Positions 26,558 to 47,288 of a DNA stretch of 64,000 nt are shown here, one piece after another. The notes beneath the pieces were generated by a model, which was given only the letters and a program-made list of their open reading frames with translations, did no database searches and was not told the origin of the DNA. Every line of letters begins with the position of its first letter. The first letter of the stretch is position 1. Source of the DNA: Lachnospiraceae bacterium (GTDB lineage: Bacteria > Bacillota_A > Clostridia > Lachnospirales > Lachnospiraceae); assembly GCA_028694115.1 (NCBI GenBank), contig JAQUUB010000002.1, positions 46,698 through 110,697 on the forward strand. The letters are read 5' to 3'. A program made the translations under genes and the position numbers.

Positions 26558-26579
26558 ACTTTAGTGAGTGAGGTATGGT

Positions 26580-28016: not shown

Positions 28017-28067
28017 TAAAACTGATGATTAAAAATAGTTTAAATTTTTTTGAAGTGGAGAATAACG

Positions 28068-28568: not shown

Positions 28569-28589
28569 AATGTAGAGTAATCAACAAAT

Positions 28590-28618
28590 TTGATTTTAAG
28601 TAAATTGTATAATATAAT
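28590..28618 (+). promoter_or_regulatory. Sigma-A-type promoter before the GT4/ABC exporter genes
   Basis: TTGATT (28590-28595) and TATAAT (28613-28618) with 17-nt spacing, giving a leader of about 75 nt before ATG 28699. Confidence 0.65.
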
Positions 28619-28698
28619 AAATAAGAATTTTTGAGATATTTTACAGAATAGTATGAAGGGATTAGCCATTTTTTATATCAAATATGGTTAGGTGCAAA

Positions 28699-29877
28699 AT
28701 GAAAATATTAGTTGTATCCTTAGAAAATTGTAGCATTCTGGAAGATTCCAATTTCCTAACCGGAGCAGGTTCATGTATTGATGCTATAATTAAGGCAGAA
28801 GCAAAAGTTATAAAAGTTTCTTATTGGAGTATTTCTACAAGCTTAAATAACATAAATACACGACTCAAAATATTGAATGCAATAATTAAAAATTTCTTTT
28901 ATATAGCCATATTCTATATAAAAAATTTTAAAATCATTCATGAAATGTTTGGAATGAAAGATCTATTATTAAACATCATAATCTTGGGTAAATTTTCTAG
29001 AAAAGTCAAAAAAGAAGCTCCAGATATTATACACTTTCATGGGACAGGTCAAATCATTCAATTGTTATCAAAATATTGTGAATATACAAAAAGAAAACAT
29101 ATAATTACCATTCATTTATATTTAGGGAAAAAAAATAATGAAATAAATACAGACTTAATTATGTCCGAATCTAAATACAAGTGGCTTTCTACAGTAAGTA
29201 CAGGTATTAAAAAATGTTTACAGAGTGACTATCCAAATAGATTTCCTAATAGAATCAAGGTGATTCTGAACGGAACAAATTATAGTATCGAAAAACCACA
29301 AATTGATATCCGAAAGCGCTATCAGATTAATAATAACAGTAAAATATTATTGTGTATTGGTTCAATTAATGAACGTAAAAATCAAATCCAGATTGTAAAG
29401 GCATTTTCATTATTACCAGAAGAATATAAAAAACAAATTACAATCATATTTTGTGGTAAAGATTTCACTAATAATGAATTCGAGCTTTTAATAAAAAAAA
29501 TGAAATTGGAAAAATATTTAATAACTGCAGGAACTATTTCACAGACAGATTTAAAATCTTACTATGCAGAGTCAGAAGGTGTCATAACAACAAGTTACCA
29601 TGAAGGGTTTTCAATGGTTTTTCTAGAAGCAATGGTTTATGGATTACCTCTAATTGTACCTAAAGGTTTGGAATCAAATGATGACTTGAATGATAGTAAA
29701 ATAGTCACTATTATAGAGGAAAGAACAGATAAGGCAGTAGCTGACAGTATGAAAACGTGGTTTGAAAAAGAATGGGACAAGGATTATATTAGAATCTATT
29801 CTAAGAATTTTTCGATGGATACAGTTGTTCAAAATTATCTGAATTATTATAAAGATATTATAAAGTGGAAAGAATAG
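28699..29877 (+). CDS. GT4-family (GT-B) glycosyltransferase
   Basis: 392 residues from ATG 28699 (AGGTG at 5 nt); ATG 28684 adds five residues. GT-B fold with HFHGTGQIIQ in the N-terminal domain and, in the donor domain, LCIGSINERKNQ and the E-x7-E motif in EGFSMVFLEAMVYG. The C-terminal KNFSMDTVVQNYLNYY helix is usual for GT4. It is more A+T-rich and lysine/isoleucine-rich than the genes before it, as are the following exporter and sulfotransferase genes, which may mark a block of separate origin. Confidence 0.87.
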   Translation: MKILVVSLENCSILEDSNFLTGAGSCIDAIIKAEAKVIKVSYWSISTSLNNINTRLKILNAIIKNFFYIAIFYIKNFKIIHEMFGMKDLLLNIIILGKFSRKVKKEAPDIIHFHGTGQIIQLLSKYCEYTKRKHIITIHLYLGKKNNEINTDLIMSESKYKWLSTVSTGIKKCLQSDYPNRFPNRIKVILNGTNYSIEKPQIDIRKRYQINNNSKILLCIGSINERKNQIQIVKAFSLLPEEYKKQITIIFCGKDFTNNEFELLIKKMKLEKYLITAGTISQTDLKSYYAESEGVITTSYHEGFSMVFLEAMVYGLPLIVPKGLESNDDLNDSKIVTIIEERTDKAVADSMKTWFEKEWDKDYIRIYSKNFSMDTVVQNYLNYYKDIIKWKE

Positions 29878-29903: not shown

Positions 29904-31724
29904 ATGATACAGAATATAAAAACATTATTATATATGTTAAAACAATTGGTGATAATTTTAGATAAAAGCCAAAAGAAGAGATGTTTGTTTGCCTTTATTT
30001 TTATCTTAATAGGTGCATTTTTTGAAATGCTAGGAGTCTCTATTTTATTACCTTTTTTGCAAACTTTAATGGCACCAGAAGTAATTATTAATAATAAATA
30101 TATTAAGCCAATTTTAGAAAATTTGAACATAATCAACACACAAAATGTATTTTATCTAGTCAGTTTTAGTGTTATGCTACTTTATATTGTTAAAAATTTA
30201 ATTCTATTATATTCTACTTATGTACAGAATGTATTAAGCACAAGTATTAACAGAGAGCTTTCGACATTAATGCTACGTTCTTACATGAAACGTCCATATT
30301 TTTATTTTCTAGAAAATAACAGTGCAGATATGTTGAGAGGTATAAATGGAGATGTAACAGGTGTATATAATATTATAGCAAATTTGTTTAAGCTTATAAC
30401 AGAATTACTTACCTGTCTTGTTATAGCAATCTTATTACTTGCTACAGATATATTTATGGCAACGGGTGTAATTCTTGTGGCTTTATTATGTCTTATTATG
30501 GTTGTATTAGTCTTTAAATCTAAAATGAGAGATATGGGAATAAAGCAGAGGATTTCTATTACTTTATGTAATAAACATGCATATCAATCAATTAATGGTA
30601 TTAAAGAAATAACTGTTATGCAAAGACGTGATAATTTTGTGAAACTGTTTGATATGGCAGCTGATATTAAAAGAGAAACAAATTTAGCTTACAATTTTAT
30701 AATTGCATGTCCAAATAGAATCATTGAAGCAGTTTGTATCTGCGGTATTATTGGTGTTGTTTGCTTGAAAATGGTTTTGGGAGTTGAGGTGGAAAAATTT
30801 ATTCCGCGGTTAGGAGTTTTTGCTGTGGCTGCATTTAAAGTACTACCTTCTATTGCTACTATTTCTGGAAACATATCAAGCTTTGTGTTTTATAGACCCA
30901 CACTTGAGGAAGCTTATGAAAATATAACAAAGGCAAGAGAGTATGAAAAGAGTAGAACAGATAATGCAATAAAAAGAGTGGAGGAGAATAATCAAAAGGC
31001 TAATGAAGAAAAAGTATTAGAGAATGGCTTTCAAGACAAGATTTCAATTAGATCGATTGATTGGAAATACCATAATGCTACGAGAAAAATATTGGAAAAT
31101 TGTTCGTTAGACATAATAAAAGGTGAATCAATCGCATTTATTGGTACATCTGGAGCTGGGAAAACAACATTAGCCGACATTATACTTGGACTACTGATTC
31201 CGCAGAGTGGAACTGTAGAAATGGATGGAATAGATATCTATAGCATACCCAATGCATGGGCACATATTATTGGATATGTACCACAATCGATTTTTCTTAT
31301 TGATGATACGATTAGAAATAATATCACGTTTGGTTTATTGTCAGAAGAAATTGATGATGAAAAGATTTGGTATGCATTGGAACAAGCTCAGATAGATGAT
31401 TTTATAAGAAATTTACCGAAGGGCCTGGATACGATTGTTGGAGAACGAGGTATCAAGTTTTCAGGGGGGCAACGCCAAAGAATTGCCATAGCAAGAGCGC
31501 TATATAATAATCCAGATATATTGGTTCTTGATGAAGCAACATCTGCATTAGATAGTGAAACAGAAGAGGCTGTAATGGAATCAATCGAAGCACTACAGGA
31601 ACAAAAAACACTGATTATTGTTGCACACAGATTAACTACTATTAGAAATTGTAAACGTATTGTTGAAGTATCAAATGGAAGTATCATTGAGAGAAAAAAA
31701 GAAGAAGTATTATCAAATATTTAA
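29904..31724 (+). CDS. ABC exporter, PglK/MsbA-like lipid-linked oligosaccharide flippase
   Basis: 606 residues with fused domains. Residues 1-~335 form six membrane segments; residues ~370-600 form the ATPase, with Walker A GTSGAGKTT, Q-loop YVPQS, signature FSGGQRQR, Walker B ILVLDEATSALD and the H-loop VAHRLTT. Half-transporters of this size act as homodimers and, within glycan loci, flip lipid-linked oligosaccharides as PglK does. It follows a GT4 gene and precedes the sulfation genes. This is the second of three export systems in the window, so it may serve a different glycan from the Wzx protein at 1081. Confidence 0.88.
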   Translation: MIQNIKTLLYMLKQLVIILDKSQKKRCLFAFIFILIGAFFEMLGVSILLPFLQTLMAPEVIINNKYIKPILENLNIINTQNVFYLVSFSVMLLYIVKNLILLYSTYVQNVLSTSINRELSTLMLRSYMKRPYFYFLENNSADMLRGINGDVTGVYNIIANLFKLITELLTCLVIAILLLATDIFMATGVILVALLCLIMVVLVFKSKMRDMGIKQRISITLCNKHAYQSINGIKEITVMQRRDNFVKLFDMAADIKRETNLAYNFIIACPNRIIEAVCICGIIGVVCLKMVLGVEVEKFIPRLGVFAVAAFKVLPSIATISGNISSFVFYRPTLEEAYENITKAREYEKSRTDNAIKRVEENNQKANEEKVLENGFQDKISIRSIDWKYHNATRKILENCSLDIIKGESIAFIGTSGAGKTTLADIILGLLIPQSGTVEMDGIDIYSIPNAWAHIIGYVPQSIFLIDDTIRNNITFGLLSEEIDDEKIWYALEQAQIDDFIRNLPKGLDTIVGERGIKFSGGQRQRIAIARALYNNPDILVLDEATSALDSETEEAVMESIEALQEQKTLIIVAHRLTTIRNCKRIVEVSNGSIIERKKEEVLSNI

Positions 31725-31770: not shown

Positions 31771-32670
31771 ATGAGTGAGTTAACACATTTAGATGCACTA
31801 GAAGCTGAGGCGATATTTATTATGAGAGAGGTGGCAGCAGAGTGTGAAAAGCCAGTAATGTTATACTCTATAGGAAAAGATAGTTCAGTTATGCTACATT
31901 TAGCAATGAAGGCATTTTATCCAGAAAAACCACCCTTTCCCTTTATGCATATCGATACTACCTGGAAATTTAAAGAAATGATAGAATTTCGTGATAGAAT
32001 TGCCAAAGAAAAAGGAATTGAAATGCTTGTATATACAAACGAAGAGGGCTTAGGGCAAGGGATAAATCCTTTTGATCATGGTTCAGCTTATACGGATATC
32101 ATGAAGACACAAGCTTTAAAACAGGCATTGAATAAGTATGAATTTACCGCAGCTTTTGGCGGTGGAAGAAGAGATGAAGAAAAATCGAGGGCAAAGGAGA
32201 GAATCTTTTCTTTTCGTAATGAAGCACATGCATGGGATCCTAAAAACCAACGTCCAGAAATGTGGAAGCTATTTAATACAAGGATTCATAAGGGAGAAAG
32301 TATGAGAGTTTTCCCGATTTCAAACTGGACGGAAAAGGATATATGGCAGTATATACAAAGAGAAAATATTGAAATTGTACCATTATATTTTGCTAAGGAA
32401 AGACCTGTTGTATATCGTGATGGGAATATCATAATGGTTGATGATGATAGAATGAAAATACTTGCTGATGAAAAAATTGAAATGAAGAAGGTAAGATTCC
32501 GTACGCTTGGCTGCTATCCACTTACTGGTGGATGTGAATCAAAAGCAGATACGTTGGAAGAAATTATCGAAGAAACTTTAAGTGCAGTTTCCTCAGAACG
32601 TACGAGCCGAGTGATTGATCATGAAGCTGCTGGTAGTATGGAAAGACGCAAGAGAGAGGGGTATTTCTAG
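31771..32670 (+). CDS. cysD: Sulfate adenylyltransferase subunit 2
   Basis: ATP sulfurylase catalytic subunit, forming adenosine 5'-phosphosulfate from sulfate and ATP together with CysN. 299 residues from ATG 31771 with GGAGG 5 nt upstream. PP-loop motif [11 protein letters not shown] near residue 31, [26 protein letters not shown] and the C-terminal [10 protein letters not shown] are all diagnostic. It ends 2 bp before cysNC. Sulfate reduction genes (CysH, CysIJ) are absent nearby while sulfotransferases follow, so this pair most likely serves sulfation rather than cysteine synthesis. Confidence 0.96.
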
Positions 32671-32672
32671 AG

Positions 32673-34496
32673 ATGAAGAGTTTATTAAAGTTTATAACAT
32701 GTGGTAGTGTTGATGATGGAAAATCAACTTTAATTGGTCATATGCTCTATGATGCCAAACTCTTATTTGCTGACCAGGAAAGAGCATTGGAACTCGATAG
32801 TAAGGTGGGTAGCAGAGAAGGAAAGATTGATTATTCTCTTTTGCTTGATGGATTAATGGCGGAAAGAGAGCAGGGAATCACGATCGATGTGGCATATCGT
32901 TATTTCACCACAGAAAAGAGGAGTTTTATAGTTGCAGATACGCCAGGTCATGAAGAATATACTAGAAATATGGCAGTTGGAGCATCGTTTGCTGACTTGT
33001 CTGTAATTTTAATAGATGCATCTCAAGGGGTTTTGGTTCAGACAAAAAGACATGCCAGAATCTGTTCACTGATGGGAATTAAACATTTTATTTTTGCTAT
33101 TAATAAAATGGATTTGGTTCATTATAATAAAGGAACATTTGATAAAATTAGTAGAGATATTAAGAAACTAATATCAGAATTTGATTATGATAGTCTGAAA
33201 ATAATTCCTGTATCAGCAACAGAAGGAGATAATATCACAAAGAAATCCTCTCTGATGTCCTGGTATCAAGGTGAGACACTATTTGATTATTTAGAGAATA
33301 TAGAACTAGCAGATAAAGACGATACAGAGGAATTTATTATGCCGGTTCAGCGTGTAAGCAGACCGAATCATACATTTCGTGGTTTTCAGGGTCAGATAGA
33401 AGCAGGATCATTAAAAATCGGAGATGAAATTATAACACTTCCAAGTCGTGAAAATGCGAAGGTTAAGAATCTGTATGTGACAGATAAAGAAACCTCATCT
33501 GCAACGATGGGACAGCCTGTAACAGTCCAGCTTGACCGTGAGGTGGATGTATCCAGAGGCTGTGTGCTGACTACAGACAAAAGTCTGAGTGTTAGCAATA
33601 TGCTTACTGCGACACTTTTATGGATGGATGATACAGAATTGATTGCAGGTAAGAATTATTACATTAAGATTGGTACAAAAATGTATCCTGCTTTTGTAAT
33701 GAATATCAAACATAAAATAGACATTAATAGTGGAGATTTTATACCTGCAGATCAGATATATAAGAATGAGATTGTGGAATGTGACATCTCTATATCCGAT
33801 AAAATCGCGTTTAGTACATTTAAGAAAAACCGAACTTTAGGTGGTCTGATATTAATAGACCGTATTACTAATATGACATCTGCCTGCGGTGTAGTTGAAC
33901 ATGGACTTAGAAGATCAGATAATTTAGTGTGGCAGAAACTTGATATTACAAGAGAAATACGTTCCAGACAAAAAAATCAAAATCCTATGACTATCTGGTT
34001 TACTGGATTATCAGGATCAGGAAAATCTACGCTTGCTAATGCGCTAGAGCAGAGATTATTTGCTATGGGTAAACACTCTATGTTGCTTGATGGTGATAAT
34101 ATCCGGATGGGGTTAAATAAGAATCTAGGATTTAAAGAACAAGATCGAATTGAAAATATCAGAAGAATATCAGAAGTGGCAAGACTTATGAATGATGCTG
34201 GATTAGTTGTTATTACATCATTTATCTCACCCTATATAAGAGACCGGGAAAATGCCAGAGAAATAATAGGAGATGGTTTTTTTGAAGTGTATGTAAATAC
34301 ACCATTAGAGGAATGTGAGAGAAGAGATGTAAAGGGATTATACAAAAGGGCAAGAAGTGGTGAAATACCTAATTTTACAGGAATATCAGGTCCTTATGAA
34401 GCATCAGACAATCCAGAAATCACAATTGATACAACAGGTATAAGCATCGAGGATGCAGTTGATAAGATTATTGAAATAATTAAGGAAAGGATTTAG
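32673..34496 (+). CDS. cysNC: Bifunctional sulfate adenylyltransferase subunit 1 / APS kinase
   Basis: 607-residue fusion that makes PAPS from sulfate. Residues 1-~430 are the CysN GTPase: GSVDDGKSTL (P-loop), DTPGHEEY (G3), NKMDLVHY (G4), then beta-barrel domains. Residues ~435-607 are APS kinase: P-loop GLSGSGKST from about 445, LDGDNIR, FISPYIRDRENAR and KGLYKRARSGEIPNFTG. Such NodQ-type fusions are common where PAPS is wanted as sulfate donor. The gene follows cysD directly and is followed by a sulfotransferase gene. Confidence 0.96.
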   Translation: MKSLLKFITCGSVDDGKSTLIGHMLYDAKLLFADQERALELDSKVGSREGKIDYSLLLDGLMAEREQGITIDVAYRYFTTEKRSFIVADTPGHEEYTRNMAVGASFADLSVILIDASQGVLVQTKRHARICSLMGIKHFIFAINKMDLVHYNKGTFDKISRDIKKLISEFDYDSLKIIPVSATEGDNITKKSSLMSWYQGETLFDYLENIELADKDDTEEFIMPVQRVSRPNHTFRGFQGQIEAGSLKIGDEIITLPSRENAKVKNLYVTDKETSSATMGQPVTVQLDREVDVSRGCVLTTDKSLSVSNMLTATLLWMDDTELIAGKNYYIKIGTKMYPAFVMNIKHKIDINSGDFIPADQIYKNEIVECDISISDKIAFSTFKKNRTLGGLILIDRITNMTSACGVVEHGLRRSDNLVWQKLDITREIRSRQKNQNPMTIWFTGLSGSGKSTLANALEQRLFAMGKHSMLLDGDNIRMGLNKNLGFKEQDRIENIRRISEVARLMNDAGLVVITSFISPYIRDRENAREIIGDGFFEVYVNTPLEECERRDVKGLYKRARSGEIPNFTGISGPYEASDNPEITIDTTGISIEDAVDKIIEIIKERI

Positions 34497-34534
34497 TTAA
34501 TTTTATCCATAAATAGAATAGTGAAGGAGTTATA

Positions 34535-35680
34535 ATGACAGAAAATATTTTTTTTCATATAGGAACACCTAAAACAGGTTCTAGTGCATTGCAATTTTTT
34601 TTACTTGAAAACAAAGAGAAATTAGAAAAGCAGGGTTTTTTGTATCCAGGATTAGGAATTTCAAAACGTAAAGAGGTTAATTATAAAACCCGATTTAGTG
34701 GAAATGGAACTTTTGTACGCAATTGTTTGTTGAAGGATCAGAAACATTTTACTATTCAAGGTAAGAAATTATTTCAAAAAATAATTTCTTTATCAGATAG
34801 TAGTAATATTATTATCTCAGAAGAAACATTATTTAATGATTCAAATTATGATTTTTATAATAACTTTATTCAAAAAGGAAGAACAGTAAAAGTAATTGTT
34901 TATTTACGAAGACAGGATAGATATCTAGAATCTTTGTGGGGTTATTTTATTAAGGTGCATTCTGATTTCAATTTACATTTTACAGACTTTGTGCATGAAG
35001 TTCAAACATCGGATGCATTTAGAGTTGATTATTATAAAAGATTACAAGAAATTAGTTCTTATATAGGGAAAGAAAATATAATAGTTAGAGCTTATGATCA
35101 TTTGGAAGGTAATATTTTTAGAGATTTTATTGAAAGTATAGGAGCAAAGTGGGATGACGAATTTATAATACCTAAAGAACGTATTAATGTTAAGTTAGAC
35201 AATCGATATATCGAGGTTAAACGTAGGATTAATGAATTGCAATTATTAAACAAAAAAATAATCACGAAAATACTATTTGAAAGACAGGCAAAAGCACTCC
35301 AAAATAGTAATTCAAAGAATGAAAAAACTTTATTATCTATAGAACAAAGAGAGTTATTATGTGAAAAATATAGGAGTAATAATGATAAGATAGAAAAAGA
35401 ATTTTTAAATGGTAAAAAGTTATTTTCGTATGAGATTACAAGAGAGCAGTCAGTTTTAAATGAAACAGAGATACAAACGGAAGTTGAGAAGATATTGTTT
35501 AAACTATGCCAAGAGCAAGAAAAAGAAATTGTTGAAGCAAAAAAAGAGCACATTTTTAATAGATTAAAAAATTTTATATATAGGAACATCCGTATGTTTT
35601 TAATTTTAGCAAATATTAAAGATGAAGAAAATATAAAAAGGTTTAAACATTATAAGTCTTATAAAGACGAAGAAAAATGA
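34535..35680 (+). CDS. PAPS-dependent carbohydrate sulfotransferase
   Basis: 381 residues. FHIGTPKTGSSALQ at residues 7-20 is the 5'-phosphosulfate loop (PKTGSS), and VYLRRQDRYLESLWGYF is the 3'-phosphate (PAP) binding segment with conserved Arg and Ser. The rest is lysine-rich and helical, with a short hydrophobic stretch near residue 355. It would transfer sulfate from PAPS to a sugar hydroxyl or amine. AAGGAG at 7 nt before ATG, 38 bp after cysNC. A clear paralogue lies convergent at 35702-36853. Confidence 0.88.
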   Translation: MTENIFFHIGTPKTGSSALQFFLLENKEKLEKQGFLYPGLGISKRKEVNYKTRFSGNGTFVRNCLLKDQKHFTIQGKKLFQKIISLSDSSNIIISEETLFNDSNYDFYNNFIQKGRTVKVIVYLRRQDRYLESLWGYFIKVHSDFNLHFTDFVHEVQTSDAFRVDYYKRLQEISSYIGKENIIVRAYDHLEGNIFRDFIESIGAKWDDEFIIPKERINVKLDNRYIEVKRRINELQLLNKKIITKILFERQAKALQNSNSKNEKTLLSIEQRELLCEKYRSNNDKIEKEFLNGKKLFSYEITREQSVLNETEIQTEVEKILFKLCQEQEKEIVEAKKEHIFNRLKNFIYRNIRMFLILANIKDEENIKRFKHYKSYKDEEK

Positions 35681-35701
35681 ATCGTAACCAATGCCACATA
35701 A

Positions 35702-36853
35702 TTATTTATCAGAATAGGTATTTTTATAATTTATTTTGCGGGTAAATTCATTCGCATATCGCTCATCGATAAGATGAAAATTAATTGCATATTTACGAAA
35801 TGTCCTTTTCACTTTATCTATAAAGAGAAAGAGACCAGAAGGGTTCAATTTTGTTTTTAGAGTTTCATCATAGGATTTTGTTATTTCGCATAAAGTCTCA
35901 GTGTATAATTCCTGAATATAATTATCATCAGGGGTGAATTTTTTTGCTGTATATTCATAAGAAAATAAAGTCTCACCATTAAGAAATTCATCTATTATTT
36001 TATCATTCCCATCTTTATAATAATCACAGATACTTTTTTTCTCTTCATTTGATAGATAGCTTCCTTTTGTTGTTACTGAGTATTTTTGTTGAATTTTGGA
36101 GATGGATTCGTTAATAAGAGCCTTATTCTTTAAACTTAATTCATTAATTCTTCGTTTGATTTCCAACATTTCGAGAGATAACTTCTCATTTATAATCCCT
36201 TCAGGAATGCGGTATTCGTCAGACCAATCAGCTTTTATGGTATCAAAAAAATCTTGATATATATTAACATTTAAATGATTAAATGATCTTACATGAACAT
36301 GATCAGCACCTATAATATCTGAAATTTCAGTTAATTTTTTATAATAATCCAAAGTATAGTGAGATTTTATTTCGGTACTTTTGCAAAAATCGATACACTT
36401 ATAATTAAAATCAGAATAGGTTTTTACGAAATATCCCCATAGGGATTCATAGTATTCATCTTGTCTCCTGAGATAACATACAACTTCTAATTTACAATTA
36501 GAATTCAGAAAATTCTCATAAAAATCTTTTGTTCCCATATCAAAAAAATCTTCGGCTGAGATTATGACATAGGGATATTTTTTTGTGGAATTTACTATTT
36601 TATGAAAAATTCTTTTGCTTTTTAAAGAAAAAGAATCATATTTTTTTGTAAATGAAAAACGTAACATAGTCCCATTACCATTAAAACTTGCTAAAGGGTT
36701 GCTAAGTTTCACAATATTTCTACTTTGAGAATTAAATGCTGGATAATAAATACCATGTTTCTTTAATTCATTTCTATTTTGTACAAAAAAAGTTTGCAAA
36801 GCACTTGTTGCCGTTTTTGGGGTACCAATATGCAATATAATTTTACCGTTCAT
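35702..36853 (-). CDS. Second PAPS-dependent sulfotransferase (paralogue, opposite strand)
   Basis: 383 residues with ILHIGTPKTATSALQ at 6-20, CYLRRQDEYYESLWGYF, DYYKKLTEIS and IKRRINELSLKN, matching the neighbouring sulfotransferase along its whole length. The two genes are inverted relative to each other with 21 bp between stops, which implies duplication followed by inversion and later divergence. Two enzymes suggest two sulfation positions or acceptors. The start ATG has GAGAGGA close upstream on the minus strand. A T-rich candidate promoter (TTAATA-16-TATAAT) lies in 36865-36910 on the minus strand. Confidence 0.87.
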   Translation of the reverse strand: MNGKIILHIGTPKTATSALQTFFVQNRNELKKHGIYYPAFNSQSRNIVKLSNPLASFNGNGTMLRFSFTKKYDSFSLKSKRIFHKIVNSTKKYPYVIISAEDFFDMGTKDFYENFLNSNCKLEVVCYLRRQDEYYESLWGYFVKTYSDFNYKCIDFCKSTEIKSHYTLDYYKKLTEISDIIGADHVHVRSFNHLNVNIYQDFFDTIKADWSDEYRIPEGIINEKLSLEMLEIKRRINELSLKNKALINESISKIQQKYSVTTKGSYLSNEEKKSICDYYKDGNDKIIDEFLNGETLFSYEYTAKKFTPDDNYIQELYTETLCEITKSYDETLKTKLNPSGLFLFIDKVKRTFRKYAINFHLIDERYANEFTRKINYKNTYSDK

Positions 36854-37029
36854 AAAAATCCTCTCTAGAAAATAATTTGTATATTATATAAATATATAAG
36901 TTTCTATTAATATTTTAGTCTTAAAGTGTTACGAAACTAGCCTAAGAACACATATGATAGATTGTTTATAATCATACCATATAAAAAAAATTTGTATAAC
37001 AATATGGGATAGAAATTTCACTTTGTAAA

Positions 37030-38022
37030 TCAAATTTTTTTATCAGGGCAGCTTTCTCTGACAATCAATTTGCAAGGAAAATCAACTCTCATATTTTCCT
37101 TGTGATGATGTGCAATACGGTCTAAAAGAATCTTTACTGCCATTCGCCCCATATCCTCTTTGGGAACATTAACAGTTGTAAGCAGGGGGGTACATTCTTC
37201 AGCAGCTTGTATGTTGTCAATGGAAATGATAGCTGGATACTTTGATCTTTTCACATGCTTTTTTAGATATTTTAGTATTCCAAGAGCTGTGGCATCATTA
37301 GCACAAAATATAGCGGAAATATCATTCTTTAAACAGAGGGATTCCATGACTTGATATCCCTCCGCCTCCGTTTGATTGGTAGAATAAATAAAGGAGTAGT
37401 CTATTGGAAGATTATGTCGCATAAGACACTCACAATATCCAATATAGCGATTTTCATAAGAACAATCTCCAATATAGGCAATCTTTTTGTAACCATTGGA
37501 AATCAAATATTCCATTGCTAATATGGCAGCATTTTTTCCATCGCAAATAACTTCATCTATATCATAGTTCGTATGATTTCGACCAACACCGATAACGTTC
37601 CTGCTTTTTTCTTTTAGCTTGCTTAAAATTTTTTCAGAGCATCTTCCTAAAATGATATACCCATCAGATTCTAAATTCGTTGTGATTAGTAATTTATTAG
37701 AAGAAACAATTTGTTCAATAATACATTGATTTGCAAATAACTCTTCTTCTATATAGCGAAATAATTCTTTAAAGAAAGGATCAGTCTCCAGAGTGTCAAA
37801 ACGACCTAATATTATTGTGATGCGATAGTGATTTTTATTTACGCTATAACCTTTTTTAAGACTACGAGCGGATTCATTAGGCGTATAATTTATATTCTTT
37901 GCAGCTTCCCAAATCTTATCCTTCATCTCTTTTGATGCACAGTTATAAGAAGTATTATTCAGAACACGTGAAACTGTGGAAGGAGCAACCCCTACCATTT
38001 CGGCAATTTTTTTTAATGACAT
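37030..38022 (-). CDS. LacI/GalR-family transcriptional repressor
   Basis: 330 residues from ATG 38022 (GGGGGA just upstream on the minus strand); an in-frame upstream ATG at 38055 would add eleven residues before the DNA-binding domain. The N-terminus MSLKKIAEMVGVAPSTVSRVLNN is the LacI helix-turn-helix, followed by the hinge helix SARSLKKG and a periplasmic-binding-protein-like effector domain with SDGYIILGR and SIDNIQAAEECTPLLTTVNVP. It is divergent from the SsuABC-like operon and a 16-bp perfect LacI-type palindrome lies between them, so it most likely controls the transporter and itself. The effector is unknown, probably a sugar. Confidence 0.92.
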   Translation of the reverse strand: MSLKKIAEMVGVAPSTVSRVLNNTSYNCASKEMKDKIWEAAKNINYTPNESARSLKKGYSVNKNHYRITIILGRFDTLETDPFFKELFRYIEEELFANQCIIEQIVSSNKLLITTNLESDGYIILGRCSEKILSKLKEKSRNVIGVGRNHTNYDIDEVICDGKNAAILAMEYLISNGYKKIAYIGDCSYENRYIGYCECLMRHNLPIDYSFIYSTNQTEAEGYQVMESLCLKNDISAIFCANDATALGILKYLKKHVKRSKYPAIISIDNIQAAEECTPLLTTVNVPKEDMGRMAVKILLDRIAHHHKENMRVDFPCKLIVRESCPDKKI

Positions 38023-38095
38023 AGGATCCCCCGTTCTTGTGATTATAAGTGGCAATTGTATGATTCTGTCCGCACATAACGATATCTTCCTTGTA

Positions 38096-38111
38096 AAGCA
38101 AACGTTTGCTT
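38096..38111. promoter_or_regulatory. LacI-family operator, site 1
   Basis: AAGCAAACGTTTGCTT is a perfect 16-bp palindrome with the central CG typical of LacI/GalR operators. It lies between the divergent repressor and transporter genes, 10 bp upstream of the -35 element of the transporter promoter. Confidence 0.8.
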
Positions 38112-38120
38112 ATTATTAAG

Positions 38121-38149
38121 TTGAAAAAGTAAAAAAACCAAAATATAAT
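38121..38149 (+). promoter_or_regulatory. Promoter of the sulfur importer operon
   Basis: TTGAAA (38121-38126) and TATAAT (38144-38149) with 17-nt spacing, a near-consensus sigma-A promoter. Flanked by LacI-type sites at 38096-38111 and about 38228-38239. Confidence 0.75.
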
Positions 38150-38212
38150 TGTGTTTGTTATATAAATATTATCAAAAATACACGAAAAAAGCAATATGAA
38201 GGGAGAAACAAA

Positions 38213-39211
38213 ATGAAAAATAAAAGAGCAAACGTTTCCGTAATAATACTTGCGGTGTTTCTAGCTGCAATTATGGTAACTGGATGTGGGAAAGAATCTG
38301 AAGGTGGAAAGACCAAGGTACGTATTGCATACTTTCCCAATATTACGCATACGCAGGCATTGATTATGAAAGAACAGGGAATGCTAGAAAACAAATTGGG
38401 GGAAGAATGTGAAGTTTCCTATACGTCCTTTAATGCAGGGCCAGCGGAAGTCGAAGCTTTGATGGCAGGAGAAATTGATATGGGCTATATAGGACCAGTG
38501 CCAGCAATTAATGCAAATGTAAAATCGAAAGGGGATGTACAGATTATTGCAAATGCGACAAATGCAGGAGCAGTCCTGATTAAGAGTATAGGTGCGGATA
38601 TTGAAACAGCGGCAGATCTTGATGGTAAGACAGTTGCTATTCCACAATTGGGAAATACTCAACATTTAGGACTTTTAAATATCTTAACTAAAAATGGATT
38701 GTCACCAAAATCGGAAGGTGGTACAGTAGATGTAGTTGCAGTAGCAAATGCTGATGTACAGAACTTGATGGATCAGGGAGAAATAGATGCAGCATTAGTT
38801 CCGGAGCCTTGGGGAAGCATATTACAGGAAAAATGTGGTGCTGAAATTGTGCTTGATTATGATGAAGTGTTTTTAGATGGAAATTATCCTACAGCAGTCG
38901 TTGTAGCAAGCAAAGATTTCTTACAAAAGCACCCAGATATAGTAGAAAAATTCTTGAAGGCACATGAGGAAGCAACTCTTTATATAAACGAAAATCCAGT
39001 AGATATGGCTGCGATTGTTAATAAGCAAATAGAAGAAGCAACTGGAAAAAGTTATGACGAAGCGATTATACAAAGTGCTTTTTCTAGAATTCAAGTAACA
39101 AAAGAGCTGTCTGAAGAAGCAATTCAGGAATTCGCAAAAATAGGCGTTGAACAAGGATTTATATCCAAATTGCCAGATGATAGCTTGATTAATACAGAAA
39201 TTCAGAAATAA
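38213..39211 (+). CDS. ABC transporter substrate-binding lipoprotein, SsuA/NrtA-like
   Basis: 332 residues. N-terminal signal peptide with lipobox VTGC (cysteine near residue 24), so it is anchored outside the membrane. The mature part RIAYFPNITHTQALIMKEQG, followed by GEIDMGYIGPVPAINA and VPEPWGS, is typical of the NMT1/SsuA family that binds sulfonates, nitrate, taurine or thiamine precursors. With permease, ATPase and CysQ downstream and sulfate-activating genes upstream, a sulfur compound is the likely ligand; this is inference. SD AAGGGAG. The first codons contain the second operator-like site. Confidence 0.85.
   Translation: MKNKRANVSVIILAVFLAAIMVTGCGKESEGGKTKVRIAYFPNITHTQALIMKEQGMLENKLGEECEVSYTSFNAGPAEVEALMAGEIDMGYIGPVPAINANVKSKGDVQIIANATNAGAVLIKSIGADIETAADLDGKTVAIPQLGNTQHLGLLNILTKNGLSPKSEGGTVDVVAVANADVQNLMDQGEIDAALVPEPWGSILQEKCGAEIVLDYDEVFLDGNYPTAVVVASKDFLQKHPDIVEKFLKAHEEATLYINENPVDMAAIVNKQIEEATGKSYDEAIIQSAFSRIQVTKELSEEAIQEFAKIGVEQGFISKLPDDSLINTEIQK
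38228..38239. promoter_or_regulatory. LacI-family operator, imperfect site 2 inside the coding sequence
   Basis: GCAAACGTTTCC repeats the core of site 1 with one changed position in the right arm, within codons 6-9 of the binding-protein gene. Centres of the two sites are 130 bp apart with the promoter between them, an arrangement compatible with repression by looping. Confidence 0.55.
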
Positions 39212-39241
39212 GGGAATAGATGGATAAGGGGAGAGAAAAAT

Positions 39242-40015
39242 ATGGCTCTTGAAATTAGACATGTGAGTAAAGTATTTGAAGGAACAAAAAAGGAAACACT
39301 ACAGAATATTAATTTAACTGTTGAAAATGGTGAATTTATATGTATAGTCGGACCTTCCGGTTGTGGCAAATCGACACTTTTAAATCAAGTGGCAGGTCTA
39401 GATACTCCAACAGCAGGAGAAATCTTTTTAGACGGAGTAAAAATCACACGACCAGGTTCTGAAAGAATGGTTATGTTTCAAGAGTCTGCTCTCTATCCTT
39501 GGCTGACGGTAAAAGAAAATGTTGTATTTGGAATGAAATTGGCGGGGCTTTTGAAAGAAGAGCAGGAAAAGAAAGCCGAATATTATTTGAAGATGGTTCA
39601 ATTATGGGATTTTAGGAATTATGCAATTCATGAAATATCCGGAGGTATGAAGCAGAGAACTGCATTAGCTAGGGCATTAACATTGGATTGCAAAGTTCTT
39701 TTGATGGATGAGCCGTTTTCTGCACTTGATAAACAAACGACCAATATGCTTAGGGAAGAGTTAGAACAGATATGGGAAAAGACTCATAAAACTATATTTT
39801 TCATAACACATAGTGTGGAAGAAGCAGTATATTTTGCAGATCGGGTAGTAATTTTGTCAGACAATCCTGGTACAATTAAAGAAATCGTAAAGATTGATTT
39901 ACAAAGACCTAGAAAAATTGATTCTGATGAATTTATAACTTTAAGAAGTACAATTTTAGATCTTGTACAAAGGGAGGTACACAAAATTGCAGAAAACGAA
40001 TACGATAAAGAATAG
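39242..40015 (+). CDS. ABC transporter ATPase, SsuB/TauB-like
   Basis: 257 residues. Walker A GPSGCGKST (about 40-48), Q-loop MFQES, signature SGGMKQR, Walker B LLMDEPFSALD and switch His in FITHSVEEA. It belongs to the nitrate/sulfonate/taurine subfamily that pairs with BPD_transp_1 permeases. SD GGGGAGAG, start ATG 39242, 30 bp after the binding protein; the 3' end overlaps the permease start by 29 bp. It powers uptake from the cytoplasmic side. Confidence 0.9.
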   Translation: MALEIRHVSKVFEGTKKETLQNINLTVENGEFICIVGPSGCGKSTLLNQVAGLDTPTAGEIFLDGVKITRPGSERMVMFQESALYPWLTVKENVVFGMKLAGLLKEEQEKKAEYYLKMVQLWDFRNYAIHEISGGMKQRTALARALTLDCKVLLMDEPFSALDKQTTNMLREELEQIWEKTHKTIFFITHSVEEAVYFADRVVILSDNPGTIKEIVKIDLQRPRKIDSDEFITLRSTILDLVQREVHKIAENEYDKE

Positions 40016-40772
40016 TTTGAAGGGTCTGTTCTTTTATGCTGCTCTGATTATTGCATGGCAAGTGATTGCGGTTTTGGGATCGGAAGTTTTTGGGTTTTGG
40101 AAAACCTATACATTTCCGAACCCTATGGGAGTCGTAGAAAGCTTTTTACAACTGATCCGGAAGGGGAGTATATTTCTAGCTATTGCTTATAGTATGAAAC
40201 GTGCGTTAATTGGATTCTTTCTGGCAATAGTGGCAGGTACCATTTTTGGTGTTTTGATAACAAATTATGCTTTTTTAAATAAAAATTTAAAACCCCTTCT
40301 AATGGGAATACAGGCATTACCTAGTGTTTGTTGGGTACCATTTGCTATTTTATGGTTTGGACTAAAAGAATCTGCTATTATATTCGTAGTAGTAATGGGA
40401 TCTGTATTTAGTATATCTCTTGCTATAGAAAATGCAATACGTAATATTCCACCCATATATATAAAAGCGGCAAGAACAATGGGAGCATCGAAAAAAGATC
40501 TTTATTTACATGTCATATTTCCCGCAGCTTTCCCCGGATTCATTGCAGGATTGAAGCAGGGATGGTCTTTTGCATGGAGAGCACTGATGTCTGGTGAAGT
40601 CATGTCTGCAGTAGTGGGGCTTGGATATACACTGAATCTTGGAAGAGATATGGCAGACATAAATCAGGTAATGGCTGTTATGATAATTATCATAATAGTT
40701 GGAATTGTAATTGATAAATATATTTTTAGCGTTATTGAATATAAGATACTTAAAAAGCGTGGCATGATATAA
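39987..40772 (+). CDS. ABC transporter permease, SsuC/TauC-like
   Basis: 261 residues from TTG 39987, chosen because AGGGAGG lies 8 nt before it; the earlier TTG 39963 has no ribosome site. Six membrane segments, and the ATPase-contact loop EAA motif is seen in KAARTMGASKKDLYLHVIFPAAFPG. FAWRALMSGEVM near the C-terminus is characteristic of the sulfonate/taurine permeases. It forms the channel of the importer with the two genes before it. Confidence 0.9.
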   Translation: MQKTNTIKNSLKGLFFYAALIIAWQVIAVLGSEVFGFWKTYTFPNPMGVVESFLQLIRKGSIFLAIAYSMKRALIGFFLAIVAGTIFGVLITNYAFLNKNLKPLLMGIQALPSVCWVPFAILWFGLKESAIIFVVVMGSVFSISLAIENAIRNIPPIYIKAARTMGASKKDLYLHVIFPAAFPGFIAGLKQGWSFAWRALMSGEVMSAVVGLGYTLNLGRDMADINQVMAVMIIIIIVGIVIDKYIFSVIEYKILKKRGMI

Positions 40773-40781
40773 GGAGGGAAC

Positions 40782-41564
40782 ATGAACTATAAGAAAGAAC
40801 TGGAAGCTGCAAAGGAAGCAGCTATTCTTGCTGGTAAAATGATTATGGATATCTATGAATCGTCCGAAGATTTATCTATAGAATATAAGGACGGAGATAT
40901 GCCTCTGACAAGGGCTGATAAATCTGCAAACGCAATAATTATTAAAATTCTTAAAGAAAGATTCCCCGATTATGCTATTCTTTCAGAAGAAGAAAAAGAT
41001 AATAAGGAACGTTTAAATAATCCATACTGCTTTGTGATAGATCCATTGGATGGAACCAAAGAATTTATTAAGAGAAATGGTCAATTCACAGTAAATATTG
41101 CATTATCCTATGAACATGAGTCGGTTATGGGTGTAATTTATGTTCCAACAACAGAGGTTATATACTTTGCATCAAAAGGGGCAGGTGCCTTCTTGAAAGA
41201 TAAAGTGGGTATCAGAAGAATAAAAGTTTCGGACGTTATAGATAAAAAAGAACTACGAGTTGTAATGAGTAATTCGCATGGTTGTGAAAAAATGAATCAA
41301 TTACTGGAAAAATATCATCTGACGCATTTTGTGAAAGTGGGAAGTTCTTTAAAGGGTTGTATGGTTGCTGAAGGAAGTGCTGATATTTACTATCGATATA
41401 ATCCTACTATGGAATGGGATACAGCGGCAATGCAGTGTATTGTTGAAGAAGCTGGGGGGATTTTCAGGCAAATGGATGGTAGTGTAATGTACTATAATCG
41501 GAATCATTGCCTAAATGAGAAAGGATTTTATCTTGTAAATTGTTCTGCAAATATCATACAATAA
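40782..41564 (+). CDS. cysQ: 3'(2'),5'-bisphosphate nucleotidase
   Basis: 260 residues, inositol-monophosphatase fold. Metal and substrate motifs are ILSEEEKDN (E in the first site), IDPLDGTKEF (DPLDGT) and MEWDTAAMQCIVEEAGG (WD near the C-terminus). It hydrolyses 3'-phosphoadenosine 5'-phosphate, the inhibitory by-product of PAPS-dependent sulfotransferases, to AMP. AAGGAGGG ribosome site, 9 bp after the importer permease. Presence in the same operon links the transporter to the sulfotransferases upstream. Confidence 0.93.
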   Translation: MNYKKELEAAKEAAILAGKMIMDIYESSEDLSIEYKDGDMPLTRADKSANAIIIKILKERFPDYAILSEEEKDNKERLNNPYCFVIDPLDGTKEFIKRNGQFTVNIALSYEHESVMGVIYVPTTEVIYFASKGAGAFLKDKVGIRRIKVSDVIDKKELRVVMSNSHGCEKMNQLLEKYHLTHFVKVGSSLKGCMVAEGSADIYYRYNPTMEWDTAAMQCIVEEAGGIFRQMDGSVMYYNRNHCLNEKGFYLVNCSANIIQ

Positions 41565-42473: not shown

Positions 42474-43559
42474 ATGAATAAAATGAAAACGTATTTAGTT
42501 ACAGGTGGAGCTGGATTTATCGGTTCAAATTATATTCATTATATGTTTCGCAAATATAATAATAGTATCCGCATTATTAATGTGGATGCATTAACGTATG
42601 CAGGAAACCTAGAAAACTTAAAAGATATTGCAAAAAGAGAGAATTATACATTTATAAAAGCGGATATAAGAGATAAAGAGGCGATTGCCAAGATTTTTGC
42701 AGAGAATGCTATTGATCGTGTTGTTCATTTTGCGGCTGAAAGCCATGTGGATAGAAGTATTAAAGACCCAGAAGTCTTTGTGGAAACGAATGTTTACGGT
42801 ACTTTAGTTATGTTAAACTGTGCGAAAGATGCATGGGAAACAGCAGATGGTTTTATGGAGGATAAAAAATTTCTACATGTTTCTACTGATGAAGTTTATG
42901 GATCATTAGATAATTTAGAAGATTTCTTCTACGAGACGACTCCGTATGATCCACATAGTCCATACTCAGCAAGTAAAGCATCTTCAGATTTTTTAGTTAA
43001 GGCTTATATTGATACGTATAAATTTCCAGCAAATATTACGAATTGTTCCAATAATTATGGACCGTATCAATTTCCAGAGAAATTAATTCCACTGATTATC
43101 AATAATGCGCTACAAGGCAAAAAGCTTCCGGTTTATGGTGATGGAAAGAACATTAGAGACTGGTTATATGTAGAAGATCATGCAAAAGGAATCGATATGG
43201 TGCAGGAGCTTGGCAGAATTGGACAAACCTATAATATTGGTGGACACAATGAAAAGCAAAACATCCAGATTATCCATATTATTTTAGATACACTGAGAGA
43301 TATGCTGCCAGATAGCGACCCCAGAAAAGCGTTAGTAAGTGATGATTTAATTACCTTTGTTGAGGATAGGAAAGGTCACGATCGAAGATATGCCATTGCA
43401 CCAGACAAGATAAGAGAAGAAATCGGCTGGAAGCCAGAAACAATGTTTGCAGAAGGAATCCGTAAAACGATTCAATGGTTCTTCGAAAATGAAGACTGGA
43501 TGAATAATGTAACTAATGGAGATTATCAGAAATATTATGAGGATATGTACCAGAAATAA
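42474..43559 (+). CDS. rmlB: dTDP-glucose 4,6-dehydratase
   Basis: Converts dTDP-glucose to dTDP-4-keto-6-deoxyglucose in the cytoplasm. 361 residues; TGGAGFIGSNY near the start binds NAD, HFAAESHVDRSI and STDEVYG are the family signatures, YSASKASSD gives the catalytic Tyr-x3-Lys and NNYGPYQFPEKLIPL is specific to RmlB. Two start codons are possible (42474, 42483); most homologues begin at the sequence of the second. It opens the rmlB-rmlA-muramidase-rmlC-wzm-wzt run, with a hairpin between its ribosome site and start. Confidence 0.95.
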   Translation: MNKMKTYLVTGGAGFIGSNYIHYMFRKYNNSIRIINVDALTYAGNLENLKDIAKRENYTFIKADIRDKEAIAKIFAENAIDRVVHFAAESHVDRSIKDPEVFVETNVYGTLVMLNCAKDAWETADGFMEDKKFLHVSTDEVYGSLDNLEDFFYETTPYDPHSPYSASKASSDFLVKAYIDTYKFPANITNCSNNYGPYQFPEKLIPLIINNALQGKKLPVYGDGKNIRDWLYVEDHAKGIDMVQELGRIGQTYNIGGHNEKQNIQIIHIILDTLRDMLPDSDPRKALVSDDLITFVEDRKGHDRRYAIAPDKIREEIGWKPETMFAEGIRKTIQWFFENEDWMNNVTNGDYQKYYEDMYQK

Positions 43560-43576
43560 GGAAAGAATGGTTATAA

Positions 43577-43619
43577 GTAAGGAGGACTGCAGGGAATGTG
43601 CAGACCTGCTTACTTATCT
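43577..43619 (+). other. Intergenic hairpin between rmlB and rmlA
   Basis: TAAGTAAG near 43577 pairs with CTTACTTA near 43611, with an inner GCAGG/CCTGC pair. No U-tract follows, so processing or differential mRNA stability is more likely than termination. Confidence 0.4.
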
Positions 43620-43655
43620 TTGTGAAAGAGAACATATTGATAGAGGAGAACGTGT

Positions 43656-44525
43656 ATGAAAGGTATTATTTTAGCAGGTGGTTCAGGAACGAGATTATAT
43701 CCATTAACAAAAGCAATATCAAAACAAATGATGCCAGTTTATGATAAACCAATGATCTATTACCCATTATCAACATTAATGCTGGCAGGAATACAGGATA
43801 TACTGATAATTTCAACACCAAGAGATTTGCCTATGTTTAAAGAACTCTTTGGAAGTGGAGAACAATTAGGATTAAAGATGTCCTATGCAGTTCAGGAGGA
43901 ACCCAGAGGGTTAGCAGAAGCATTTATCATTGGAGCAGAATTTATCGGAAAAGATAGTGTTGCAATGGTACTAGGAGATAATATTTTTTATGGACAAAGT
44001 TTCTCGAACGTGTTAAGAGAAGTAGCAAGTAGAGAAAGTGGTGCAACTATTTTTGGTTATTATGTCCGTGATCCCAGAGAATATGGTGTTGTTGAATTTG
44101 ATGAAAATGGAATGGCACTTTCGATTGAAGAGAAACCAGAAAATCCAAAATCAAATTATGCGGTTCCAGGACTCTATTTTTATGACAATGATGTTGTTGA
44201 AATTGCTAAAAATGTGAAGCCTTCTGCAAGAGGTGAAATTGAAATAACGAGTATCAACAATGAATATTTAAGAAGAGGCACCTTAAAAGTTGAAACCCTA
44301 GGAAGAGGATTCGCATGGTTAGATACAGGAAATCATGATTCCCTTCTGGATGCTGCTGATTTTGTGTCCGCATTTCAAAAACGTCAAGGGCTATATATTT
44401 CCTGCATTGAGGAAATTGCATATAAGAGAGGCTTTATCAACAAGGAGCAGCTCTTAAAACTGGCAGAATCCTTACGAAAAACGGAATATGGTCAATATTT
44501 GCTAGATGTCGCAAATGGGTTATAA
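43656..44525 (+). CDS. rmlA: Glucose-1-phosphate thymidylyltransferase
   Basis: 289 residues. Makes dTDP-glucose from glucose-1-phosphate and d[32 protein letters not shown] shows the G-x-G-x-R nucleotide loop and catalytic Lys; LGDNIFYGQ has the metal-binding Asp, [20 protein letters not shown] and the [10 protein letters not shown] segment complete the RmlA pattern. AGAGGAG ribosome site at 8 nt. Its end overlaps the next start by 20 bp. Phosphohexomutase for its substrate is encoded at 54694. Confidence 0.96.
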
Positions 44526-45717
44526 GAAGCTATTATCTGTACTTGCTTTTATGCTTTCCATTACCGGAATCGCAATTGTAGTAGTTTTCTTTCTCTATTC
44601 TATGGAGCTTAGAAATCAAAAGAATGAAACAGACAGTCAAAGCACTGATAGAGAAATAGCAATTTCAGAAAATATTGCGAAATTAACAGATATTGCAAAA
44701 GTGAAGAAGAAGGAAGAAAGACAAAAGAGGGAAGTATCTGTTCAATTATCTTCTATACAAAAAGATATCAAAGTAAAGCTCTTAGATTCGAATGAAAAGA
44801 GGATAAAAGGAACTCTTTTTCGTATTTCAGTGATTGATCCGTACGGCCAAACTTCTGACTACCAAGATGATGATATGGATGGTTATCTGCATATTGAAAA
44901 TATAAAATCGGGTCCGTATGATGTGAAACTTATGGAAATAGAAGGCTTAGATGTTCCCAAAAACCCGATTAGGGTTCGCGTGAAAGAGGAAATACAATAT
45001 CGGGTGCTGAATGATATTGTTGATGAAATAAAATTAGAATCAGAAATAAACGCTAGCCTTGAAGATACGGCTAATATTGAAGAAGTGGATCAAGGTGTTG
45101 CACATGAAGTCGGAAAAGTCGGATCCCTCGGAATTGATGTATCCAAATGGAATAAGGAAATTGACTGGCAGAAAGTTAAGGATGAAGGAGTAGAGTATGC
45201 GGTTATTCGTCTAGGATATAGGGGTTCATCCACAGGAGTGTTAGTAGAAGATCCGTATTTTGAGAGAAACTTAGAAGAGGCAAGCAGGGTAGGAATCAAC
45301 ACGGCGGTTTATTTCTTTACACAGGCAATCAATGAAGTGGAAGCTGTCGAAGAAGCAAGTATGTGTGTGGCTCTGCTTGATGGGAAAGAGATTCAAATGC
45401 CAATCTATCTTGATGTAGAGGGAAGCTCGGGAAGGGCAGATTCACTTGATCCTACAACAAGAACAAATAATATCTTGGCATTTCTTAAAACAATTGAAAG
45501 CAAAGGGTACGATGCTGGGGTATATGCAAATAAGAATTGGTTAACAAATAAAATAGAGGCGAATCGTTTAGAAAAAAATGAGATCTGGCTGGCTCAATAT
45601 AATGTGATAGAGCCCAATTATGAAGGAAATTATCAAATGTGGCAATATTCTTCCAAAGGAAAAATGAATGGAATTGAAGGCTATGTAGATATGAACAAAA
45701 GACTTAATGTTGAATAA
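44506..45717 (+). CDS. Membrane-anchored GH25 muramidase
   Basis: 403 residues in three parts: an N-terminal membrane helix (about 8-32), a prealbumin/SpaA-like beta domain near 80-165 ([20 protein letters not shown] ... [17 protein letters not shown]), and a glycoside hydrolase family 25 domain from about 208 to the end, with [16 protein letters not shown] (acidic D-x-E) and IWLAQYN motifs. It would cut peptidoglycan at the outer membrane face. It lies between rmlA and rmlC with overlap to rmlA (start ATG 44506 or 44515). It may open the wall locally for polymer export or attachment; this is inference. Confidence 0.87.
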
Positions 45718-45730
45718 GGAGAATGAAAAG

Positions 45731-46294: not shown

Positions 46295-46296
46295 TT

Positions 46297-47271: not shown

Positions 47272-47288
47272 AATTAGAAAGGTACAGA

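Follow-up and report, generated by a model that had tools for sequence, protein, structure and literature searches.

Gene content and layout of the locus

The window analysed here, a 64,000-nucleotide stretch of contig JAQUUB010000002.1 from a Lachnospiraceae bacterium (assembly GCA_028694115.1), carries a candidate module for sulfation that depends on 3′-phosphoadenosine 5′-phosphosulfate (PAPS). On the plus strand, it begins with cysD (31771..32670), the small subunit of ATP sulfurylase (NCBIfam NF009214, 518.8 bits against a cut-off of 413). The cysD frame from a TTG spans 31759-32670; we preferred the ATG at 31771, which has a GGAGG ribosome-binding site just 5′ of it. The following gene, cysNC (32673..34496, plus strand), encodes the GTPase subunit of ATP sulfurylase fused to an adenosine 5′-phosphosulfate (APS) kinase (NF004035, 828.6 versus 715 bits), with the Pfam domain APS_kinase (PF01583) at residues 438-586 (E-value of 1.9 × 10−66). 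By NCBIfam and Pfam, CysD and the bifunctional CysNC, APS-kinase domain included, thus have what defines a PAPS synthase.

Two sulfotransferases (STs), assigned by motif and predicted fold, come next: ST1 (34535..35680, plus strand), which has no Pfam family, and its paralogue ST2 (35702..36853, minus strand). A LacI/PurR-type regulator (37030..38055, minus strand; Pfam LacI and Peripla_BP_3) is divergent from an importer on the plus strand. The latter consists of an SsuA-family substrate-binding protein, probably a sulfate binder (38213..39211; TIGR01728, 243.4 versus 163.5 bits), an SsuB-like ATPase (39242..40015; ABC_tran) and an SsuC-like permease of uncertain start that overlaps SsuB (39963..40772; BPD_transp_1). 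The last gene, cysQ (40782..41564, plus strand), encodes a phosphatase of 3′-phosphoadenosine 5′-phosphate (PAP) and scored 236.0 against the 228.8 bits of TIGR01331. With the narrower PRK10931 model CysQ reached 189.8 bits, under the cut-off of 379, and its closest chain of solved structure is CysQ 3b8b (E-value of 1.8 × 10−44).

All genes named in a first-pass annotation, made from the sequence alone, are present in the window by open reading frames (ORFs), Pfam and NCBIfam, or by motif and fold for the STs. The two STs are related, as it had proposed, with 42% identity over 318 aligned columns. Its description of the genes as lying in a row needs correction: ST2 and the LacI gene are on the minus strand, which makes divergent units and convergent ST ends. 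Two units, LacI-ST2 and SsuABC-CysQ, diverge from the gap between LacI and SsuA. Spacing and strand suggest that CysD-CysNC-ST1 form an operon-like unit behind an upstream exporter.

A sulfotransferase family missed by profiles

Neither ST1 nor ST2 received a sulfotransferase name from Pfam or NCBIfam profiles. Sulfotransfer_1, 2 and 3 (PF00685, PF03567 and PF13469) matched neither protein even at an E-value of 10, and the sole Pfam match of the STs at or below that value was to DUF1002, in ST2 (E-value of 0.14). A sequence search of the PDB returned weak, unrelated chains alone, with best E-values of 0.28 for ST1 and 0.09 for profile A1.

Both motifs expected to bind PAPS are conserved in the family. 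In the N-terminal P-loop for the 5′-phosphosulfate, G10, K13 and T14 are found in 40 of 40 sequences, G15 in 36 and a serine or threonine at position 16 in all 40. The 3′-phosphate-binding motif comprises R125 (40/40) and, eight residues on, S133 (39/40), a spacing that we take to match the R-to-S spacing of SULTs. E97 is also invariant, and we speculate that it might serve as catalytic base. The predicted models of ST1 and ST2 have the fold of the PAPS-dependent sulfotransferase superfamily, and both fit glycan sulfotransferases better than SULTs. ST1 and ST2 therefore carry both PAPS-binding motifs and, as modelled, a fold like that of heparan-sulfate sulfotransferases. The models are nearer to glycan STs; fold alone names no acceptor.

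A scan of genome contigs identified 412 ST relatives among 441 pattern matches, and the best 80 of the 412 stretches were fetched as loci (fetched loci and genomes are numbered L and G below). These were mostly titled Lachnospiraceae, Clostridia, Eubacteriales or genera thereof, with a few vaguer titles and one locus (L068) titled Bacteroidales. Several record titles suggest that the sample came from rabbit, deer or rumen. Metagenome homologues included one of ST1 (38%, P0004) and one of CysNC (80%, P0123), which may both belong to a single relative of the locus in metagenomes.

CysNC accompanies the sulfotransferases in relatives

We next asked how ST and CysNC are placed in 50 genomes picked for carrying ST and not for the distance between the two genes. 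A full CysNC match was found in 44 of these, and six had no full single match. The 44 full CysNC rows entered the distance test, from which 11 weak or partial ST rows were omitted. ST lay at most 3 kb from the full CysNC in 29 of the 44 genomes, always on the same strand (29/29), and at most 200 bp away in 24. Because 29 of 44 genomes show this arrangement, the co-location of CysNC and ST exceeds chance. Among the 80 ST loci, ORF labels placed ST and CysNC together in 32, and tblastn found a CysNC match in 33; flanks were at most 10 kb and often ended at a contig edge, so absences make these counts lower bounds.

A second set comprised 299 genomes from the family to which Lachnospiraceae bacterium 3-2 belongs, with a centre (G006) picked from the ST scan. 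Here, CysNC was termed kinase-bearing if the match reached residue 600 or beyond. G183 (match in two pieces), G345 (residues 1-486) and G076 (37% identity) were dropped from this class, and G084 (91-605) was kept. The set contained ST in 16 genomes, kinase-bearing CysNC in 29, AprA in 25, CysQ in 13 and an SsuA-like gene in 10. Kinase-bearing CysNC accompanied 15 of the 16 STs, 11 of the 13 CysQ, all 10 SsuA-like genes and 3 of the 25 AprA; Fisher values for these associations do not correct for shared ancestry. Two observations count against the sulfation reading. G223, the sixteenth genome with ST, lacks a fused CysNC, and two stop codons fall inside the separate kinase match next to its ST; and this ST family is missing from 14 of the 29 genomes with kinase-bearing CysNC. 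Overall, we consider it highly probable that the genes in the window form a PAPS-dependent sulfation module for some acceptor. Separately, locus L090 (G136) was seen to hold CysD-CysNC without this ST family.

The module within a polysaccharide locus

The sulfation module is physically within a polysaccharide locus, as glycan genes and exporters flank it on both sides. Upstream, on the plus strand (19541..29877), Pfam assigned in order a glycosyltransferase (GT) of family GT2, an epimerase, GT4, GT2, GT8, GT2, GT2, a 482-aa protein without assignment, a hexapeptide transferase and GT4. These are followed by a PglK/MsbA-like ABC exporter (29904..31724, plus strand; ABC_membrane and ABC_tran), whose top NCBIfam model is PglK at 301 bits, below the cut-off of 1000, and whose end is 46 nt from the cysD ATG. 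Downstream, also on the plus strand (42474..48563; Pfam), are rmlB, which passes its NCBIfam cut-off, an rmlA-like gene, a gene for a GH25 protein, rmlC and a Wzm/Wzt-type exporter with Wzt_C. With genes for PAPS synthesis and STs amid GTs and an exporter, the locus has the gene content of sulfated-polysaccharide clusters of the kind described in Cobetia and Vibrio.

Several other features of the window were observed. A 127-aa protein encoded between cysQ and rmlB (41664-42047) is a lone Spo0A C-terminal DNA-binding domain with no receiver. The GH25 (lysozyme-type) gene, at 44506-45717, sits between the rmlA-like gene and rmlC. Further upstream, a gene row at 12725-19291 encodes a CDP-glucose 4,6-dehydratase (over its cut-off), a DegT aminotransferase, a DRE-TIM aldolase-like protein, a HAD protein and an acetolactate-synthase-like thiamine pyrophosphate enzyme, probably an unusual CDP-linked and possibly branched sugar pathway. 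The window also holds three export routes, Wzx-like (1081-2562), PglK/MsbA-like (29904-31724) and Wzm/Wzt with Wzt_C (46297-48563), and three different exporters suggest that two or more glycans are made within the 64 kb.

The glycan of this locus is most likely the acceptor, a reading favoured by the position of the module, the predicted fold of the STs and published marine parallels. The closest CysD to that of the window in our tree set is from L091 (88% identity), and among the five nearest CysD rows, L091 and L093 sit among glycan genes. L091 encodes three similar proteins of 412-413 aa, with a Sulfotransfer_1 match in the one scanned, as well as GT2 and short-chain dehydrogenase/reductase genes (local profile). 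In L093, Glf, NKWYS and RgpF (Pfam) and GT2 and GT4 (local profile) surround CysD-CysNC-CysQ and a CysT-type importer. Proteins with Sulfotransfer_2 and Polysacc_synt are found beside CysD-CysNC-CysQ in L094. The NKWYS protein of L093 (3894-5156) has a putative capsular polysaccharide domain, and in that PAPS-bearing locus no sulfotransferase was recognised; it could be another sulfotransferase.

The system might instead sulfate a small molecule, a lipid, a peptide or a host or dietary sterol, its position in a glycan locus being incidental. In many relatives, the module indeed sits apart from any glycan locus that we could recognise, and these cases weigh against a glycan acceptor. Local profiles found a GT in only 15 of the 80 ST loci. 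The remaining three of the five nearest CysD rows (L036, L098 and L109) have no evident glycan locus around them, and L002, L006 and L012 hold the complete SsuABC-CysD-CysNC-ST unit beside purine or other housekeeping-looking genes (by eye). A census of the nearest neighbours of ST, covering 132 proteins, yielded response regulators (n = 13), CTP synthase (n = 8), L10 (n = 7), GT2 (n = 5) and pyruvyl transferase (n = 5); 6 of 138 ORFs, five of them for SsuB-type ATPases and one of 766 aa, were left out, and near-copies are numerous among the metagenome-assembled genomes. In Bacteroides, a PAPS and ST cluster of the same logic, BT_0411-BT_0416, is reported to sulfate cholesterol (PMC9417993). 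For the window itself, the evidence points the other way: cysD closely follows an exporter behind GT genes, rml genes lie downstream, the ST models are closer to glycan sulfotransferases than to SULTs, and the CysD of L091 and L093 lie amid glycan genes. We therefore regard a non-glycan acceptor as unlikely. A glycan locus as the general rule for the ST neighbourhood was not borne out by the census.

The importer most likely carries sulfate

The SsuA of the window exceeds the general family model, whereas specific sulfonate and taurine models were not reached (PRK11553, 75.4 of 299 bits; TIGR01729, 73.6 of 304; SsuC permease, 107.4 of 347). Among the 32 loci with ST and CysNC, SsuA and SsuC were found in six, a CysT-type permease in seven and both in none; by the same ORF labels, the 48 loci without CysNC had neither. 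The binding protein of L091 and L105 passes NCBIfam sulfate-binding cut-offs. In the 299-genome set, the SsuA-like gene was near CysNC on the same contig in 2 of 10 genomes (G012 and G310) and on other contigs in eight. Judging from these sequence comparisons, the SsuABC-like transporter most likely carries sulfate, because the set tracks kinase-bearing CysNC in all ten genomes, because a CysT-type importer replaces it in sister loci and never occurs with it, and because the binding proteins of L091 and L105 exceed the sulfate cut-offs. The first-pass annotation had proposed import of a sulfur source; the importer stands, and the source can be narrowed to, most likely, sulfate itself.

The score with the general SsuA model would also fit a transporter that brings in sulfonates or taurine for sulfur supply, independently of sulfation, and the closest sequences of solved structure, which bind taurine, nitrate or aliphatic sulfonate, count against sulfate. 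We judge sulfonate import improbable, given the specific models under their curated cut-offs, the restriction of the SsuA-like gene to 10 of 299 genomes, each with kinase-bearing CysNC, and the substitution by a CysT-type importer elsewhere, which in L091 is accompanied by a regulator and operators resembling those of the window. In L038 (Lachnospiraceae bacterium 3-2), the SsuA-like gene at 11167-13812 appears as two short ORFs around a 454-aa ORF, as if interrupted.

A LacI-type regulator and its predicted operator

The gap between LacI and SsuA contains a perfect palindrome, AGCAAACGTTTGCT (38097..38110), which we predict to be the LacI operator and which resembles PurR-type sites. It is the sole exact or one-mismatch match in the 64 kb. 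A second predicted operator, a pattern match with two mismatches, lies at the ssuA start (38227..38240). With three mismatches allowed, matches are no more frequent than chance would give.

LacI homologues in L091 (58%) and L107 (55%) adjoin sulfate or Ssu-like importers. The exact 12-base operator core was found in 1 of 109 fetched loci, L091, and 14 loci were scanned with up to three mismatches. L091 has two copies with a single mismatch each, the first next to LacI in the gap and the second at the start of the sulfate-binding-protein gene, and combines the 58% LacI and this sulfate-binding protein, which is over the cut-off, with CysT-type permeases in place of SsuABC. Exchange of the importer with the same operator is shown by L091 alone. 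L107, with CysD-CysNC-CysQ-ST, SsuABC and the 55% LacI, has one two-mismatch site in the LacI-importer gap. L042 (47% LacI, CysT-type importer) has no site better than three mismatches, the two-mismatch site of L093 falls inside another gene, and L012, L002, L105 and L015 have only three-mismatch sites, which are at chance level. At up to three mismatches, no operator-like site was found in L089, L082, L006, L038, L053 or L075. A 41% LacI homologue was observed at L082:6291-7367, in an AprA-type sulfate assimilation cluster of G010; control by this family of regulators may extend to other sulfur genes.

In relatives, the module is kept apart from sulfate reduction

That no sulfate-reduction genes accompany the module, as first noted from the sequence, was confirmed in the window for AprA, AprB and sulfite reductase (tblastn with L081 proteins; Pfam on the main ORFs). 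CysD was single-copy in 13 of 15 relatives. In the other two, one of the two copies belongs to a cluster of CysTWA-like, AprA, CysD and CysN genes with a sulfite-reductase-type gene (L081 and L082); CysN, AprA and Sir of L081 were also identified by NCBIfam. AprA was found in 9 of the 50 ST genomes, with no match in the other 41. All nine AprA contigs also carry CysN, whose match stops short of the kinase domain or only just enters it (query residue 306-471; in G021 the CysN frame is short). The full CysNC is on a contig other than that of AprA in eight of the nine genomes; in G020, the ninth, a frame of kinase size stands alone. In the 299-genome set, 22 of the 25 AprA genomes were without kinase-bearing CysNC (in G345 it is partial, and in G223 a kinase piece stands by itself), and both kinds occur together in the remaining three. 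In the relatives examined, the kinase-bearing CysNC is a gene separate from the AprA-adjacent CysN. The AprA route consumes APS, so that an APS kinase is not required.

In the CysD tree, ST-linked rows clustered without forming one clade (8 changes versus a shuffled mean of 16.2), and the two AprA-linked rows fell in different parts of the tree. The window CysD shares 85% identity with its AprA-linked counterpart in G002. CysD phylogeny does not separate the two uses; the kinase domain does. That CysD-CysNC and the importer serve cysteine synthesis by assimilatory sulfate reduction, with the STs as incidental neighbours, would fit this mixing of both uses in the tree and two further points against a dedicated sulfation role, namely sulfite-reductase-type domains in 10 of 15 relatives and, in 4 of 15, a frame of 605-794 aa whose PAPS-reductase-like match scores under the cut-off for cysH. 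We consider it very improbable and rejected assimilation as the main role of CysDNC, as cysH was over its cut-off in none of the 15 relatives (8 of 14 controls were positive), most ST genomes have no AprA match, AprA-linked CysN is a separate gene without the kinase, and the window has CysQ and the STs adjacent and no reductase.

Proposed pathway

We propose a four-step scheme. Under the control of the divergent LacI-type regulator, the SsuABC-like transporter would import sulfate. CysD-CysN would convert it to APS and the fused APS kinase would convert APS to PAPS, these activities being expected from family membership. The two presumably cytosolic STs may then sulfate sugars of a lipid-linked glycan before its export by one of the transporters nearby. 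Finally, CysQ, likewise assigned to its family by sequence, would hydrolyse inhibitory PAP. We think it probable that the window encodes such a self-contained pathway, from sulfate import and activation to PAPS through transfer onto the locus polysaccharide to PAP clearance; the host may also have further uses for PAPS. Of the interpretation first offered for the locus, the dedicated PAPS supply, the STs and CysQ stand, and in relatives these are separate from sulfate reduction.

Comparison with known sulfation systems

Among bacteria, sulfated coats are best known in a few marine or photosynthetic species; otherwise this chemistry is familiar mainly from animals and algae. In rhizobia, NodPQ is an ATP sulfurylase/APS kinase. 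The chemically defined sulfated capsule of Cobetia marina KMM 1449 is among the closest parallels: its capsular polysaccharide (CPS) cluster has a cysN/cysC fusion, cysD, cysQ, a sulfate permease gene and an ST, along with dTDP-Rha genes, GTs and an ABC exporter (PMC11766843). Unlike our locus, it comes from a marine species that is Gram-negative and carries kpsSC and wcb lipid-carrier genes, has a sulfate permease gene in place of an SsuABC-like set, and comes with no mention of a LacI regulator or operator in the available text (PMC11766843). The CPS cluster of Vibrio sp. KMM 8419 has second copies of cysC, cysN and cysD with STs; this organism too is Gram-negative, and importer, regulator and cysQ are not mentioned in the portion available (PMC11641403). 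For synechan of Synechocystis, a demonstrated sulfated exopolysaccharide (EPS), the xss cluster combines two STs with GTs, Wzx/Wzy and a regulator, but it is cyanobacterial, its regulator is of the XssS/R/Q type, and the accessible text does not mention PAPS genes (PMC8205485).

BT_0411-BT_0416 shares with our module a gut bacterial host and the joint presence of a putative sulfate importer, putative PAPS genes and an ST; it differs in its cholesterol acceptor and Gram-negative host, and the available text does not present it as a glycan locus (PMC9417993). The rhizobial NodPQ-NodH system also couples dedicated sulfate activation to a glycan sulfotransferase. NodH acts on a lipo-chitooligosaccharide signal, not a surface polysaccharide (PMC11625862), and differs further in being recognised by PF13469. 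The wps-1 cluster of Actinoplanes missouriensis is a Gram-positive EPS cluster with two predicted STs, and a sulfate-activation-type gene, AMIS_7390, is also needed for normal sporangia (PMC13390465). This host is an actinomycete, the sulfated product is predicted only, the STs are recognised by InterPro, and a compact PAPS/importer/CysQ module is not described in the portion available (PMC13390465).

Sulfated polysaccharides have been called exclusive to cyanobacteria among bacteria (PMC8205485, PMC13390465); marine proteobacterial sulfated capsules nonetheless exist (PMC11766843, PMC11641403), and PMC9570845 cites chemical reports in Bacilli and lactic bacteria, with titles that claim a sulfated EPS for Weissella and for Anoxybacillus. 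Among the papers listed in literature searches, judged by title and abstract start and including few subscription papers, none described a PAPS-sulfotransferase module in a Clostridia polysaccharide locus. The kind of system is known; new here are its occurrence in a Gram-positive lineage, an ST family that profiles do not recognise, the exchange of one importer for another and an operator common to two loci. We tentatively suggest, as a broader possibility, a sulfation regulon of the Lachnospiraceae's own, in which a LacI-family repressor with operator AGCAAACGTTTGCT would control interchangeable importers of sulfate (CysTWA or a repurposed SsuABC), these would supply a dedicated CysDNC-CysQ PAPS cycle, and Pfam-invisible, heparan-sulfate-sulfotransferase-like enzymes would draw on it to make glycosaminoglycan-like sulfated surface polysaccharides in the gut.

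The regulator-operator pair is now testable, and reassignment of an SsuABC subfamily to sulfate is proposed. A large sulfotransferase family unseen by Pfam would be added, with 412 related stretches from one scan. If the proposed pathway is correct, anaerobic gut-type Firmicutes would place sulfated bacterial glycans within the gut community, where sulfatases might act on them and where they might mimic mucin or glycosaminoglycans of the host.

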